The notes beneath the pieces were generated by a model, which did no database searches, was not told where the DNA came from, and saw only the letters and a program-made list of their open reading frames with translations. Source: Alphaproteobacteria bacterium (lineage in GTDB: Bacteria; Pseudomonadota; Alphaproteobacteria; CAAGCB01; CAG-977). From it: a stretch of DNA of 41,382 bases. Below are positions 36,567 through 41,382 of the stretch, one piece after another (position 1 is the first letter of the stretch; each line of letters starts with the position of its first letter). The stretch covers positions 1 to 41,382 of the forward strand of contig JAFYCE010000024.1 of assembly GCA_017539865.1 (NCBI GenBank). The letters run 5' to 3'. Both the position numbers and the translations under genes were made by a program.

Positions 36567-37490
36567 ATGACAAATGTCGTTCAAAAAATCAGGTTTTCTT
36601 CTTTTTCCCCGAATTTGAAAGGGGCTTGCTGGCTGCTCGGTTCCGTCATTCTGTTTCAAATTTCCTACAGCCTTGTCAAACTGACCGGTCAAAACATCCC
36701 TTCCGTCCAGATCGTATTCTTACGCAGTCTGTTCCAAATGCTGCTGGTTCTGCCGTTTGTTTGCAAAGCCGGCTTCGGCGTCATGAAAACGCGGCAGTAT
36801 AAAAATTACGCCTGCCGTTTATTTTTCGGCGTCAGCAACATCGTTTTAACATTTTACGCTTTTACGCATATGCAGCTGGCGGGGGCGACGTCGCTTGTCT
36901 TCACGCGTTCCCTGTTCACAATTCCCTTGGCGGCGATCATGCTGAAAGAACACGCCGGATGGAAAAGGGGGATAGCCACGGTCATCGGATTTATCGGCGT
37001 TTTGATCGTTTTGAACCCCGGCCCCGTCGGAATCGGAAAAGCGGAAACGGCCGCCCTTTTCGCTTCGTTTCTGCTGGCGCTGACATACATCTACATCCAA
37101 CGCCTGTCCCGAACGGAAAATCATTCGGCCATGTTGATGTATTTCGGTATGGCCTGCTGCGTTCTTACGGTCGGGCCGGCATATTTTCTGTGGGTTCCGG
37201 TCAAACCGGAAGTGTGGCTGGGCGTTTTTGCCATCGCCGCGACGGCCACAAGCGCGCAATACTGCATCATCCGCGGATATCAAATCGGGAAAGCGACCGT
37301 CATTTCTCCGATCGATTATCTGCAAATTCCGTTGGCGGCAATGATTGGAAGATATCTTTTCGGTGAAACTCTGTCTTTACATTTCACCGTCGGAGTTATT
37401 ATTATCATTACGACCAGCGTTTATATTTTAAAACGTCGGGCGGGCGATGACGACATTCCCGCGACTTCAACCAAAGAGGCTATTCAATGA
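36567..37490 (+). CDS. EamA/DMT-family transporter
   Basis: 307 residues with about ten hydrophobic helices in two EamA repeats. Repeat 1 holds VQIVFLRSLFQMLLVLPFV, TFYAFTHMQLAGATSLVFTRSLFTIPLAAIMLKEHAGWKRGIATVIGFIGVLIVLNPG-type features, seen here as YAFTHMQLAGATSLV and GFIGVLIVLNPGP; repeat 2 holds SPIDYLQIPLAAMIGRYLFGE. The substrate is unknown; DMT exporters often handle metabolites. Its stop overlaps the next start in an ATGA, so translation of the Lon-like gene is coupled to it. Confidence 0.9.
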   Translation: MTNVVQKIRFSSFSPNLKGACWLLGSVILFQISYSLVKLTGQNIPSVQIVFLRSLFQMLLVLPFVCKAGFGVMKTRQYKNYACRLFFGVSNIVLTFYAFTHMQLAGATSLVFTRSLFTIPLAAIMLKEHAGWKRGIATVIGFIGVLIVLNPGPVGIGKAETAALFASFLLALTYIYIQRLSRTENHSAMLMYFGMACCVLTVGPAYFLWVPVKPEVWLGVFAIAATATSAQYCIIRGYQIGKATVISPIDYLQIPLAAMIGRYLFGETLSLHFTVGVIIIITTSVYILKRRAGDDDIPATSTKEAIQ

Positions 37491-39928
37491 CTGTATCCGC
37501 TCTTTCTTATCAACAGTTGTACAGCACGTGCGATCTTGACTTTCTGTCTTTTGAAACGACGCGCGATTTGGAAGACTTGAACCAACCGCTGGGGCAGGAA
37601 CAAGCCATCAAAGCGATCAATTTCGGCATCAGCATGGATTCTTACGGTTACAATCTGTTTTGCATCGGCTCCGAAGGCACCGGAAAATCTTCTTTAGTGC
37701 GCCAAATCCTGACGAAAGCGGCTAAAAAACGCAAAACGCCGGACGACTGGTGTTATGTCTACAACTTTAAAACGCCCTATAAACCCGCCGCGTTCCGTAT
37801 GCCCGCCGGCAAAGCTAAGGTCTTTGCCAAAGCCGTCGACAAGCTGATCGAAGAAATCCGCGTGGCCCTGCCCGCCGTTTTCGACGGAGACGAATACAAA
37901 ACGCAATTAAAAACGATCGAAGACGCTTTTCACGATCAAAAAACAAAATATTTTGATGAGATTCAGAAAAACACCACCGGCAAAAACGTTTCCGTTTTGC
38001 GTATGCCCGTGGGATTGGTCGTCGCGCCGACAAAAGACGGCGACGTCCTCAGCCCCGAAGCCTTTGAAAAGCTGTCCGAAGAAGAACAACAGGAAGTGCT
38101 GGCGGAACTGAATGCGGCGCAGGAGGAATTGGAAAACGCCGTTCACGACATTCCGAAATGGGAAAAGGAACAGCGGGAACAAACGCAAGAACTGAACGAA
38201 CGTTTCGCTTCGCTGGCGATAAAACACCTGATCGACACGCTGAAAAAAAGATACCGCCACAATAAAAGCGTGACGGCTTTCCTGCGCAATATGTATGACG
38301 ATATCATCGAAAACGTCGATATGTTTCTGGAAGAGGAGGACGAACAGGCGCAAGCGCAAATGCCCGTCGACGAAGAACAGGCGATGCCCGCCCTGTCGAA
38401 AAAGTCGGACGGCTTTTTCCGCCGGTATAAAGTCAACGTTCTGGTCAATCATTCCGAAAAGAACGGCGCTCCGCTGATTTTTCTGGATCACCCGATTCTG
38501 ACAAACCTGATCGGACGCATTGACAGACAGCAACAGTACGGCGCTTTGATTACCGACTTCAACATGATCAAAGCCGGCGCCTTGCACGAAGCCAACGGCG
38601 GCTTTCTGGTCATCGAAGCAAAAGATTTATTGAATCAAACATCGTCGTGGGATGCGCTGAAACGCGCTTTACGGTCGAAAAAGATTACAATGGATCCGCC
38701 TTCGACCGACGGCATGATGACGACCATTCTGGAACCGGAGGCGATTCCCTTGGACATTAAAGTCGTCCTGTTGGGCGAACCCGATTTGTATTATATGTTG
38801 GCGGAAAACGATCCCGATTTCACCGAATTGTTCAAAGTCGAAGTCAATTTTCTGCCTTATATGGAAAAAACGAAGGAAAATCTTTCGAAATACGCGCGTT
38901 TGATTGCGACCCAAGCGCGCCGCAATCAACTGCGTCCGTTGCAGAAATCGGCCGTGGCGCGTTTATTGGAACACGCCTCCCGTCTGGCGGAAGACAGTCA
39001 AAAACTGACCGCGCATATCGCTTCCATCAGCGACTTGATTCGCGAAGCGAACTACTGCGCGATGACCGACGGGAAATCGCCTGAAATCACACGCGCGCAC
39101 GTGGAACGCGCAATCGCCGCGAAAATCAAACGTTCCGACAGAATACAGGAAAGAATGAACGAACAGATTTTACGCGGTTCGATTTTGATTGATACGAACG
39201 GTTCCGTTGTCGGACAAATCAACGGATTGGCCGTTTTGGAATTCGGTCAGATGGCATTCGGGAAACCGAGCCGGATCACTTGCCTGACTCGCATGGGCTC
39301 CGGCGACGTCATCGATATTGAACGCGAAGTCGATCTGGGCGGCCCTCTGCACACCAAAGGCGTTTTGATTCTTTCCAGTTTTCTGGCGTCCCGTTTTTCG
39401 CAAAACGCCCCCTTATCCATGGAAGCCACGCTTGTTTTCGAACAGTCCTACGGCGAAGTGGACGGGGATTCGGCTTCTTCGACCGAACTCTACGCCATGT
39501 TGTCCGCCCTTTCCAATGTGCCTATCCGTCAAAATCTGGCGGTCACGGGATCGGTCAACCAGTTCGGGCAAATCCAAGCAATCGGCGGCGTCAATGAAAA
39601 AATCGAAGGATTCTTCGACATTTGCCGTTTGCGCGGCCTGACCGGCAAGCAAGGCGTTTTGATTCCGAAAACGAATGTTGTCAATCTGATGCTGCGTCAG
39701 GATGTCGTCGACGCCTGCAAAGAAGGGAAATTCCATATTTACCCTGTTTCGACGATTGACGAAGGCATTGAAATTTTGACCGGCATCCCCGCCGGAAAAC
39801 GGGATGCCGAAGGCAACTATCCGGAAAACAGCATTAACGGTAAAGTGCAGGCGCGGCTGAATCAGTTTTTGGCGCAAAATCTGGAATATCGCCGTCAAGC
39901 CCATCTGCCGCCGAAAAGCAGGATTTAA
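37487..39928 (+). CDS. Lon-related AAA+ protease (AAA_32/Lon_C type)
   Basis: 813 residues in the LonB/YcbZ-like group with an ATPase fused to a Lon-type proteolytic domain. Walker A GSEGTGKSS lies at 61-69; a long coiled insertion occupies about 190-310; the AAA domain continues to about residue 530. The C-terminal Lon protease domain carries Ser662 (GDSAS) and Lys705 (NEKIEG), 43 residues apart as in E. coli Lon. No membrane segment is visible. It overlaps the transporter by four bases. Degradation of damaged or regulatory proteins is the likely function, but substrates are unknown. Confidence 0.95.
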   Translation: MTVSALSYQQLYSTCDLDFLSFETTRDLEDLNQPLGQEQAIKAINFGISMDSYGYNLFCIGSEGTGKSSLVRQILTKAAKKRKTPDDWCYVYNFKTPYKPAAFRMPAGKAKVFAKAVDKLIEEIRVALPAVFDGDEYKTQLKTIEDAFHDQKTKYFDEIQKNTTGKNVSVLRMPVGLVVAPTKDGDVLSPEAFEKLSEEEQQEVLAELNAAQEELENAVHDIPKWEKEQREQTQELNERFASLAIKHLIDTLKKRYRHNKSVTAFLRNMYDDIIENVDMFLEEEDEQAQAQMPVDEEQAMPALSKKSDGFFRRYKVNVLVNHSEKNGAPLIFLDHPILTNLIGRIDRQQQYGALITDFNMIKAGALHEANGGFLVIEAKDLLNQTSSWDALKRALRSKKITMDPPSTDGMMTTILEPEAIPLDIKVVLLGEPDLYYMLAENDPDFTELFKVEVNFLPYMEKTKENLSKYARLIATQARRNQLRPLQKSAVARLLEHASRLAEDSQKLTAHIASISDLIREANYCAMTDGKSPEITRAHVERAIAAKIKRSDRIQERMNEQILRGSILIDTNGSVVGQINGLAVLEFGQMAFGKPSRITCLTRMGSGDVIDIEREVDLGGPLHTKGVLILSSFLASRFSQNAPLSMEATLVFEQSYGEVDGDSASSTELYAMLSALSNVPIRQNLAVTGSVNQFGQIQAIGGVNEKIEGFFDICRLRGLTGKQGVLIPKTNVVNLMLRQDVVDACKEGKFHIYPVSTIDEGIEILTGIPAGKRDAEGNYPENSINGKVQARLNQFLAQNLEYRRQAHLPPKSRI

Positions 39929-39966
39929 AAAATACGGATAATCCTTTATCCCGCTCTAAGTATTTA

Positions 39967-40001
39967 AAAACTAAAAAAAATTCTTGATTTTTTTTAGTTT
40001 T
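39967..40001. repeat. Perfect 15-bp AT-rich inverted repeat
   Basis: AAAACTAAAAAAAAT (39967-39981) pairs exactly with ATTTTTTTTAGTTTT (39987-40001) around TCTTG. Only one G-C pair occurs in the stem. It may end the Lon-like transcript or act as a DNA signal for the cysteine-rich genes; a TTGATT (-35) starts in the loop and TAATAA or TAATTT just after could be a -10. Confidence 0.6.
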
Positions 40002-40012
40002 AATAATAATTT
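39984..40012 (+). promoter_or_regulatory. Possible promoter of the cysteine-rich gene pair
   Basis: TTGATT at 39984-39989 with TAATTT at 40007-40012 (17-base spacer) is a plausible promoter overlapping the right half of the inverted repeat. The run of TAATAAT makes the exact -10 uncertain. Confidence 0.35.
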
Positions 40013-40052
40013 AAGCAATCAAAAAAACAGAACAGTTTCTCAGGAGGGTGGA

Positions 40053-40763
40053 ATGAAACGTTTTTTTGTAGCATTTTTGTGCGCCTGTATTTTCGGGGGG
40101 CGTCAAGTTAATGCAGGCTGTGAAAATGTCTCTTTTGTAAATGCGGATAAAGCGACCAGTACTTGTTTGGAATGCATTGCTAATATCTGTACAAAAGCTC
40201 TTTGCAAAACGGGATATGTCTTTCATGAGGGTGGAAATGCTCACGGGTACACCGGAACGACAGATGATCATGGCTCCTATCCGTTATGGAAAGCCGGATG
40301 TTATCCGATAGGTTCATGTTTTGATTATAATAAAACCGGTGTTAACGCTTCAGGAAAAACGTATGCGTGTATAAAAATGGGGATGACGGCTTATAGCAAC
40401 TCTTACTATAATCGTTGTGCTGTCAGTCCGGGTGGTCAGTCTGAAAGTTTTTATAAAAACAGCAAACTTTGTTGTGATAACGGGTACAAATATCAGAATG
40501 GTAAATGTCTTCCCTGCCCGACGGGATGTCTTTCCTGCTCAGGGAACGATACTTGTTTCCTGTGCGATAACGGATATTTTCTGAACAGCGGAAATTGTAT
40601 CAAATGTCCGGATCACGCCGAAATTTGTTCCGGCAATACTTTGGCCTGCGAAGACGGATATAAAAAAGAAGAAAACACATGTGTCGCGGATATGAATCAA
40701 ATCAACGGTAATTGTCCGACCGGTTTAAAAAAATCGGATGACGGATGTTGCTGTTTAAAATAA
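40053..40763 (+). CDS. Exported cysteine-rich protein with furin/VSP-like repeats
   Basis: 236 residues from the ATG at 40053, with AGGAGGGTGG just before it, among the strongest ribosome sites here. Residues 1-21 are a signal peptide (FFVAFLCACIFGGRQVNA). The mature protein has 26 cysteines. Residues 150-215 repeat C-x(2)-C-x(3)-C-x(2)-C...CDNGYFLNSGNCIKC-type units, as in furin-like and eukaryotic variable-surface-protein repeats. It ends in DDGCCCLK. The wording of codons is AT-richer than the rest. No enzyme motif. A secreted or surface-attached protein is likely; function unknown. Confidence 0.85.
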   Translation: MKRFFVAFLCACIFGGRQVNAGCENVSFVNADKATSTCLECIANICTKALCKTGYVFHEGGNAHGYTGTTDDHGSYPLWKAGCYPIGSCFDYNKTGVNASGKTYACIKMGMTAYSNSYYNRCAVSPGGQSESFYKNSKLCCDNGYKYQNGKCLPCPTGCLSCSGNDTCFLCDNGYFLNSGNCIKCPDHAEICSGNTLACEDGYKKEENTCVADMNQINGNCPTGLKKSDDGCCCLK

Positions 40764-40779
40764 AAAAGGAGGGGGAATC

Positions 40780-41085
40780 ATGAAAAAATTATTGCTTTTT
40801 ATTATCGCCGTATCCGTTTTTTCACCTTGTTCCGTTCCCGCGGCGGACGGCGCGGTAAATACGGAAAAACCGTTCCAAATCGCCAAAGCCTATAAATTGG
40901 GACAGGAAAAAGAAAGTATTTACATTCACAAGGATGTGACTTTAAAAACACACGAACCCGTTGTTTGTCCGTCGGGACAATACAGAGTCGAAACGGGATG
41001 CCGGTCGCTTTGTCAGGGAATAACATGCACAAAGGGGACGGAGCCCGTGCTTGCCCACGATGGTAAAGGTTGCTGCTGTTACTGA
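40780..41085 (+). CDS. Small exported cysteine-rich protein
   Basis: 101 residues, 16 bases after the previous gene and behind a very strong ribosome site (AAGGAGGGGG). A signal peptide (KKLLLFIIAVSVFSPCSVPAA) is followed by a 79-residue mature chain with seven cysteines, all in the C-terminal 40: VVCPSGQYRVETGCRSLCQG, ITC and terminal GKGCCCY. The ending resembles that of the upstream protein (GCCCLK), suggesting a common origin or shared cofactor or disulfide framework. No family recognised. A terminator follows, so the two genes form one unit. Confidence 0.82.
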   Translation: MKKLLLFIIAVSVFSPCSVPAADGAVNTEKPFQIAKAYKLGQEKESIYIHKDVTLKTHEPVVCPSGQYRVETGCRSLCQGITCTKGTEPVLAHDGKGCCCY

Positions 41086-41090
41086 AACTT

Positions 41091-41127
41091 AAATCCCCTA
41101 TTCGTTTCCGGATAGGGGATTTTTTTT
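41091..41127 (+). terminator. Rho-independent terminator after the cysteine-rich pair
   Basis: AAATCCCCTAT (41091-41101) pairs with ATAGGGGATTT (41112-41122) around a ten-base loop and runs into T residues. It ends the two-gene unit. Confidence 0.9.
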
Positions 41128-41133
41128 AAAAGA

Positions 41134-41382
41134 CTAATTATCCATTGTTGTGCCGCGACCGCGCATCGCATACGGATTGGTCGCCGCCGACTGCAGTTTC
41201 GGATTATACATCAGGCAGTTCGGCGTGCAGTCGCATTCCGCCGCAATCTTGATTCCCTTGGCGATTTTTTCCTCTTTGCGCAATTCAAACAGCCGGTTCA
41301 CGATACGGTCGCGCAGCGTCCACGGATCGACCGTGTTCACAAAAATCTTCGTCACGGCTTCAAAGCCTGCCGGATTGCTGAT
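41134..41382 (-). CDS. C-terminal end of an unrecognised protein, cut by the right window edge
   Basis: The frame is open to the window edge, giving 82 residues that end in RGRGTTMDN. The GTG at 41355 is not a convincing start because the frame continues upstream (NPAGFEAVTKIFVN...). Visible are a charged helix (LRDRIVNRLFELRKEEKIAKGIKIAAE) and a small Cys cluster (ECDCTPNCLMYN). I do not recognise a family. It converges on the terminator of the cysteine-rich pair. Confidence 0.65.
   Translation of the reverse strand: MSNPAGFEAVTKIFVNTVDPWTLRDRIVNRLFELRKEEKIAKGIKIAAECDCTPNCLMYNPKLQSAATNPYAMRGRGTTMDN

Follow-up and report, generated by a model that had tools for sequence, protein, structure and literature searches.

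A few well-studied bacteria are known to have repertoires of surface proteins under slippage promoters, and the variant-specific surface proteins (VSPs) of the protist Giardia carry a membrane tail. Switching of Giardia VSPs is described as epigenetic (PMC2996952). The promoters of Bordetella fim2, fim3 and fimX contain C stretches, and the length of the tract is described as altering transcription (PMC1891110). The RNA sRNA-Xcc1 (RF02221) is reported to sit upstream of symE in the integron cassettes of Xanthomonas (PMC12444791). These systems are the closest to a pair of genes located near the end of a 41,382-nucleotide stretch of alphaproteobacterial DNA (contig JAFYCE010000024.1; the whole stretch is referred to as the window). 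The pair consists of gene A (40053–40763, forward strand, 236 amino acids) and gene B (40780–41085, forward strand, 101 amino acids), both of which encode exported cysteine-rich proteins and have paralogues in their own genome. A and B represent one copy of a two-gene cassette that occurs many times within one genus and has weak relatives in the family. A phase-variable repertoire of surface proteins is the most likely function of this dispersed cassette, its probability being judged slightly better than even.

Protein A contains 28 cysteines and protein B contains 8; behind the apparent signal peptides, of 21 residues in A and 22 in B, 26 and 7 of them remain, respectively (both cleavage sites were placed by eye). 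The proteins end in DGCCCLK (A) and KGCCCY (B), that is, in GCCC followed by one or two residues. The tandem exported pair with 26 and 7 mature cysteines and matching endings, as given in a preliminary description of the window, is therefore confirmed by the open reading frames (ORFs). The many-copy nature of the pair, as well as the poly-C promoters and the RNA leader of its relatives discussed below, are points which that description had missed.

The A–B cassette was defined as an exported cysteine-rich A ending 10–17 bp before an exported cysteine-rich B; the window pair, with a gap of 16 bp, falls within this definition. A search of the genome that contains the window, 1.95 Mb in 131 contigs, gave 9 matches for A at E ≤ 1 and 11 for B at E ≤ 10, several of which are fragments of one locus, and the cassette is present at about 8 places. 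A followed by B was found on contigs C117 (the window), C41, C67, C71, C56, C104 and C86, while C57 contains an A-like frame and then a match to B. On C41 and C56, A is truncated by the contig start, and a second, divergent A at the end of C71 may continue on C56 (the divergent A gene pair at the contig end lies at L024:5815–9223 and L025:63–727). The two A genes of C71 share inverted segments with 92–98% identity over 104–127 nt, which suggests recombination. Contig breaks near the cassettes (C117, C41, C71, C56) may point to repeats.

An A frame ends 10–17 bp upstream in 20 of the 24 B genes collected, at least 2 of these A frames being cut by a contig start. At three further B genes (L073, L087, L101) an A tail is present upstream without a called A frame, and at L089 there is none; the total of 23 out of 24 with A is biased upward, since many loci were fetched through a match to A. 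The pair is regarded as more than a chance neighborhood because the A–B order recurs at other loci with the gap of 10–17 bp.

Among 61 relatives searched, matches to A at E ≤ 1e-3 were obtained in 11 of the 12 genomes of the family (G000–G011) and in none of the 49 other Alphaproteobacteria, the two richest family genomes giving 16 and 18 matches. B as a single-protein query matched 4 of the 61 genomes, all within the genus. A profile of 24 B proteins reached 11 of the 12 family genomes at E ≤ 1e-3, with weak matches outside the genus. At the level of the class the B profile, which was scored against at most 13 candidates per genome (the 266 matchless genomes not being listed), gave matches at E ≤ 1e-6 in 3 of the 289 genomes, which all belong to the genus; G006, a member of the same genus, stayed below this limit. 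Thirteen loci belong to three records of uncultured Alphaproteobacteria, one of them from roe deer rumen. Relatives of A were found neither in plasmids, nor in phages, nor in IMG/VR. No description of the cassette family was found among the open-access papers listed, as judged on titles and the openings of abstracts. Widespread single-domain periplasmic homologues, which the preliminary description had named as the case against its own proposal, were not seen.

The bodies of the A proteins are highly variable among 22 aligned members and reach 58 cysteines (other A proteins, including those of the own-genome contigs C104, C86 and C57, were left out of the alignment). Their C-terminal tail (in the window NCPTGLKKSDDGCCCLK, 40710–40760, forward strand) follows the pattern CPxxxxxSxDGCCC, of which C, P, S and one C are invariant in the 22 proteins. 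By eye on this alignment, the tail of window A (NCPTGLKKS..) is closer to that of sister-species A proteins with poly-C promoters than to that of A proteins with the RNA leader (SCPSRMTLSS..). In two A genes (L087:2240–3436 and L101:2559–4164) the conserved tail lies outside the frame of the start; these could be broken copies, assembly errors or cases of switching at the coding level. The parity of the cysteine count was considered as a sign of a disulfide bond between A and B and was dropped, as the result was mixed and the cleavage rule crude.

Window A and B match no Pfam model above its cut-off, so that membership of window A in the Furin-like, growth-factor-receptor Cys-rich or VSP families is not found and B has no match at all; NCBIfam profiles gave nothing for either protein. 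The sub-threshold matches of window A are to VSP (E 0.027, 13.8 bits, cut-off 31.4) and MSC (E 0.0071, 16.2 bits, cut-off 29.7). Among the 22 A proteins, matches were obtained to Ephrin_rec_like (PF07699) in 3 (best E 4.3e-44), MSC in 6, VSP in 6, TNFR-like in 3 and NCD3G in 2; the Ephrin_rec_like matches come from sister A proteins, window A not being among them. The predicted structure of window A, which begins at residue 22, has a mean predicted local distance difference test score (pLDDT) of 55, with block means of 74–88 at model residues 121–190 and an unmodelled N-terminal half. The better part corresponds to a predicted Furin/R-spondin-like cysteine ladder (about residues 142–211; 40476–40685, forward strand), placed by the pLDDT of the model and by PDB structure matches. 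Structure prediction, proposed in the preliminary description as a check, thus gave R-spondin Fu1–Fu2 and the EphA2 Cys-rich domain as the best PDB matches in Foldseek at only E 5e-3 to 1e-2. The top match has E 5.1e-3, probability 0.98 and TMq 0.23; the matches are at about 20% identity, and none was obtained at E ≤ 1e-3. A sequence search of PDB returned only R-spondin-2 for A (E 0.42) and nothing for B. The fold of A may therefore be called weakly R-spondin/EphA2-like on the basis of the model. As for the eukaryote-like repeats announced earlier, the cysteine repeats are real and the resemblance holds for part of the A family through the Ephrin_rec_like matches; it is weak for the window copy, which stays below every Pfam cut-off.

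These matches bear on another explanation, according to which furin-like or VSP-like genes were acquired from a eukaryote of the same gut or rumen. The Ephrin_rec_like, TNFR-like and NCD3G matches of a few sister A proteins, the weak VSP and R-spondin matches of window A and the lower GC content of the pair are in its favor. The GC content is 41.4% for A and 46.4% for B against 48.3% for the window, as had been noticed before, and at third codon positions it is 0.364 for A, 0.465 for B and 0.606 for lonB, the upstream neighbor; the pair also lies below the two upstream genes measured. The A genes in five other own-genome cassettes are likewise below the GC content of their locus. Against acquisition stand the spread of the family through the whole genus, its signal peptides and ribosome sites of bacterial type, the position of window A below all Pfam cut-offs, and convergence, through which short cysteine repeats can arise. 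A foreign eukaryotic origin, at which the preliminary description had hinted, is unproven: among the bacterial genomes searched it finds no support in a group of genes that is spread in one genus and thins out in the wider family, other own-genome A genes being low in GC as well, and it is considered quite improbable.

Protein B is better conserved than A, its common parts being a K[LVMF]G segment and the cysteine-rich end. The first of them, a KLGR-type segment near the mature N-terminus (in the window FQIAKAYKLGQ, with KLGQ; 40873–40905, forward strand), was located by alignment of 24 B proteins, and its K and G are present in at least 90% of them. The second is the C-terminal cysteine module (40966–41082, forward strand; alignment and model). 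The model of B has a pLDDT of 57 overall, about 35 at the KLGQ segment and block means of 66–86 over the last 39 residues. B-type N-termini are also fused to cysteine repeats within single genes (for example, L069, L074, L085 and L100). In the sister genome G006, an 1820-residue exported protein with 251 cysteines has a KLGR-type start (L072:234–5696).

A variable A beside a more conserved exported B, together with strong ribosome sites, could also be expected from a secreted two-part effector, adhesin or bacteriocin-like toxin, A being the variable active part and B a carrier or immunity protein. This explanation is considered unlikely: B has its own signal peptide, several B-type N-termini occur fused to cysteine repeats in single genes, and searches of Pfam, for the window pair also of NCBIfam, revealed no toxin or enzyme domain.

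Matches to DsbB (PF02600) and VKOR (PF07884) were absent from all 12 family genomes, DsbA, DsbC and other oxidants not being searched; among 14 named control genomes, DsbB was matched in 6 and VKOR in 3. Since neither enzyme was found, the disulfide bonds that the preliminary description had proposed for the pair are to be regarded as putative. Finding neither alongside the exported protein with 251 cysteines in a sister genome makes the route of oxidation a direct question. These results, as well as the CxxC and CCC motifs throughout the proteins, would suit metal- or thiol-handling envelope proteins, in which cysteines are kept reduced and bind metal, the copies differing in metal or redox niche. 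The predicted furin-like ladder in the C-terminal half of A and the strong matches of some sister A proteins to eukaryotic disulfide-rich repeats argue otherwise. Variable bodies and poly-C promoters would also be unusual for metal handling, and this role is regarded as improbable.

In sister species, promoters with poly-C tracts precede genes of this type. The pattern used (9 C followed by ATRTTTTTATAGA, at most 3 mismatches) was derived from loci already seen. It gave 30 sites in 4 of the 12 family genomes (10 in G003, 8 in G004, 7 in G005 and 5 in G001; examples are L064, L084, L091 and L081) and none with the reversed-pattern control. Four of the 30 sites reach the contig end within 16–189 bp, leaving 26 with a readable gene. 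A cysteine-rich gene follows 25 of these 26 when the longest nearby frame is taken, at least 5 of the 25 frames being short, cut or atypical (G004:C14, G005:C83, G005:C5, G003:C50, G003:C19). The called start lies 69–86 bp past the tract in 12 of the 26; elsewhere the frame opens at another ATG. Tract lengths range from C9 to C18. G004 contains 21 tracts of at least 10 C, among which 8 have the pattern and another 2 stand before KLGR-type genes (L065, L069). By simple repeats of this kind, candidate phase-variable (contingency) loci are recognized in 4 of the 12 family genomes.

Other cassettes in three of these sister genomes carry a conserved leader of about 235 nt before A-type starts. It was found in 15 copies (7 in G003, 7 in G005 and 1 in G001), at L037, L039, L041, L047, L048, L054, L057, L059 (968–1203), L060, L088, L090, L092, L098, L099 and L221. 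No contig carries both the leader and a poly-C site. The alignment comprises 14 of the 15 copies, L099 being left out because of a different 5′ half. The structure has 42 pairs, with 99.0% of cells paired and 14 pairs changing on both sides over the 14 copies. Covariation is 0.287 against 0.097 after shuffling and at most 0.057 when slid, which is the conserved structure expected of a cis-regulatory RNA; the helices were chosen by eye on the same sequences, so that the test favors them. In a putative pseudoknot helix, all 6 pairs change on both sides and are fully paired with one G-U, there being 13 sequences in 14 copies. A loop pairing is kept at 100%, with 3 of 9 pairs covarying; shuffles reach its pair and type measures in 5 and 115 of 500 cases, respectively. 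The same strand could alternatively pair with the start-codon region (94.8% paired), which is only suggestive because shuffles reach the both-side changes in 62 of 500 and the pair types in 500 of 500 cases.

Against Rfam, the leader gave only sub-threshold matches to sRNA-Xcc1 (33–37 bits in 5 of 6 loci, cut-off 53; none is listed for L039). The exact pattern of the leader core found nothing in IMG/VR, and one leader copy as the query found nothing in plasmids. A group I intron was considered and dropped by eye on the alignment, where the putative core helix is not kept and a local hairpin covaries. The leader makes a good candidate for a regulatory RNA not yet described.

At the window locus, the strong ribosome sites of the preliminary description are borne out by AGGAGGG before A (40042–40048) and AGGAGGGGG before B (40767–40775), both read from the sequence on the forward strand. 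As for the shared terminator it named, a terminator-like hairpin of 14 pairs, 6 of them GC, followed by a T run is present after B (41091–41122, forward strand). This is the single match of the terminator scan in 39850–41382, where shuffles of the region average 2.1; as the count is not above the shuffled expectation, the scan alone is no evidence. Between lonB and A, no match to a sigma-70-type promoter was found, and a 13-bp A/T-rich inverted repeat was read at 39969–39999 (forward strand). No C or G run of at least 7 occurs near A–B, so by simple repeats the window locus does not class as a phase-variable (contingency) locus. Rfam matches in the window are all sub-threshold and look like chance. 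The upstream neighbor, lonB, encodes a LonB-like protease (37487–39928). On the minus strand downstream of B, a gene for a DUF4921 protein is cut by the contig end, so that just its last part is present (41134–41382).

The lonB gene is present in all 12 family genomes, and in the other 11 no cassette directly follows it (about 1.5 kb was read); in G003 a KLGR-type gene lies about 1.2 kb from lonB. The location of the window copy is not common to its relatives. For one apparently orthologous cassette of G005 and G003, the nonsynonymous and synonymous divergences (dN/dS) are 0.18/0.33 in A and 0.18/0.85 in B, this being a single pair, and a partial comparison of lonB for the same genomes gives 0.037/1.44. 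The low dS of A in this one pair could be a sign of exchange.

In a phase-variable surface repertoire, A would be the outward, variable part with a ligand-binding or antigenic role, docking via its cysteine tail onto B, and B would carry a common anchoring or assembly segment. Single copies could be switched on and off by tract slippage in some cases and by the RNA leader in others. A population would then meet host immunity, protist grazers, phages or shifting partners with a changing set of cysteine-rich proteins. The surface or host-facing role previously proposed for the exported pair stays plausible. The window copy has neither poly-C promoter nor RNA leader, so that phase variation is deduced for it from its relatives; it probably has an ordinary promoter, which was not recognized.

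Several observations weigh against this reading, among them the upward bias in the share of B genes with A. Poly-C promoter sites number zero in the window's own genome, G002, G006 and all five genomes from the two further genera, and the sole tract of 10 C in the window's genome sits inside a long coding frame. Within G004, 11 of the 21 long C tracts look unrelated, and the site G004:C40 precedes a gene that is not cysteine-rich. The genomes are consensus metagenome-assembled genomes, which hide variation of tract length within a strain. Among the own-genome loci fetched, none showed an RNA leader. The DNA pattern of the KLGR segment has 0 matches in the window's genome, where the motif is degenerate, against 3 in the control, and is clearly above control only in G003 and G004. 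The CCC tail is not universal, four A proteins of the window's genome (on C104, C86, C57 and C56) lacking it. Surface location, expression and switching of the cassette products are steps that we infer, and binding of A to B is suggested by gene order.

Among the known systems, R-spondin Fu1–Fu2 and the EphA2 Cys-rich domain are weakly resembled by the predicted cysteine ladder in the C-terminal half of A, the model of A (pLDDT 55) giving no match at E ≤ 1e-3, low TM-scores and about 20% identity. sRNA-Xcc1 resembles the leader of the relatives in that 5 of 6 leader loci match the whole model, though with sub-threshold scores; the leader is longer, precedes cysteine-rich genes, scores below the gathering threshold and does not occur at the window locus. 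The sister-species cassettes resemble Bordetella fim2, fim3 and fimX in a long C tract in the promoter, there of surface-protein genes. The flanking motifs, the organism and the genes differ, and the poly-C tracts of the cassette are known from consensus sequence and are absent in the window's genome. The A family resembles Giardia VSP (PF03302) in its cysteine-rich repeats and many-copy repertoire, the Pfam matches of window A being sub-threshold. In contrast to Giardia VSP, the cassette is bacterial, includes a partner gene, has no evident C-terminal membrane segment and has poly-C promoters in some relatives. Its known range so far is a single small group of uncultured bacteria, one relative coming from roe deer rumen. 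It is conceivable, with a likelihood put just short of even, that the cassette is a bacterial counterpart of the variant-surface-protein systems of protists. It would combine a dispersed variable A and a more constant B, with a phase-variable poly-C promoter or an undescribed RNA leader as alternative switches in some species. The hypervariable, always complementary pseudoknot would perhaps be private to each copy, avoiding cross-pairing of RNAs. If so, a connection with phages, host immunity or grazing by protists could be put to the test, and bacteria, like gut protists, may have evolved variable cysteine-rich coats.
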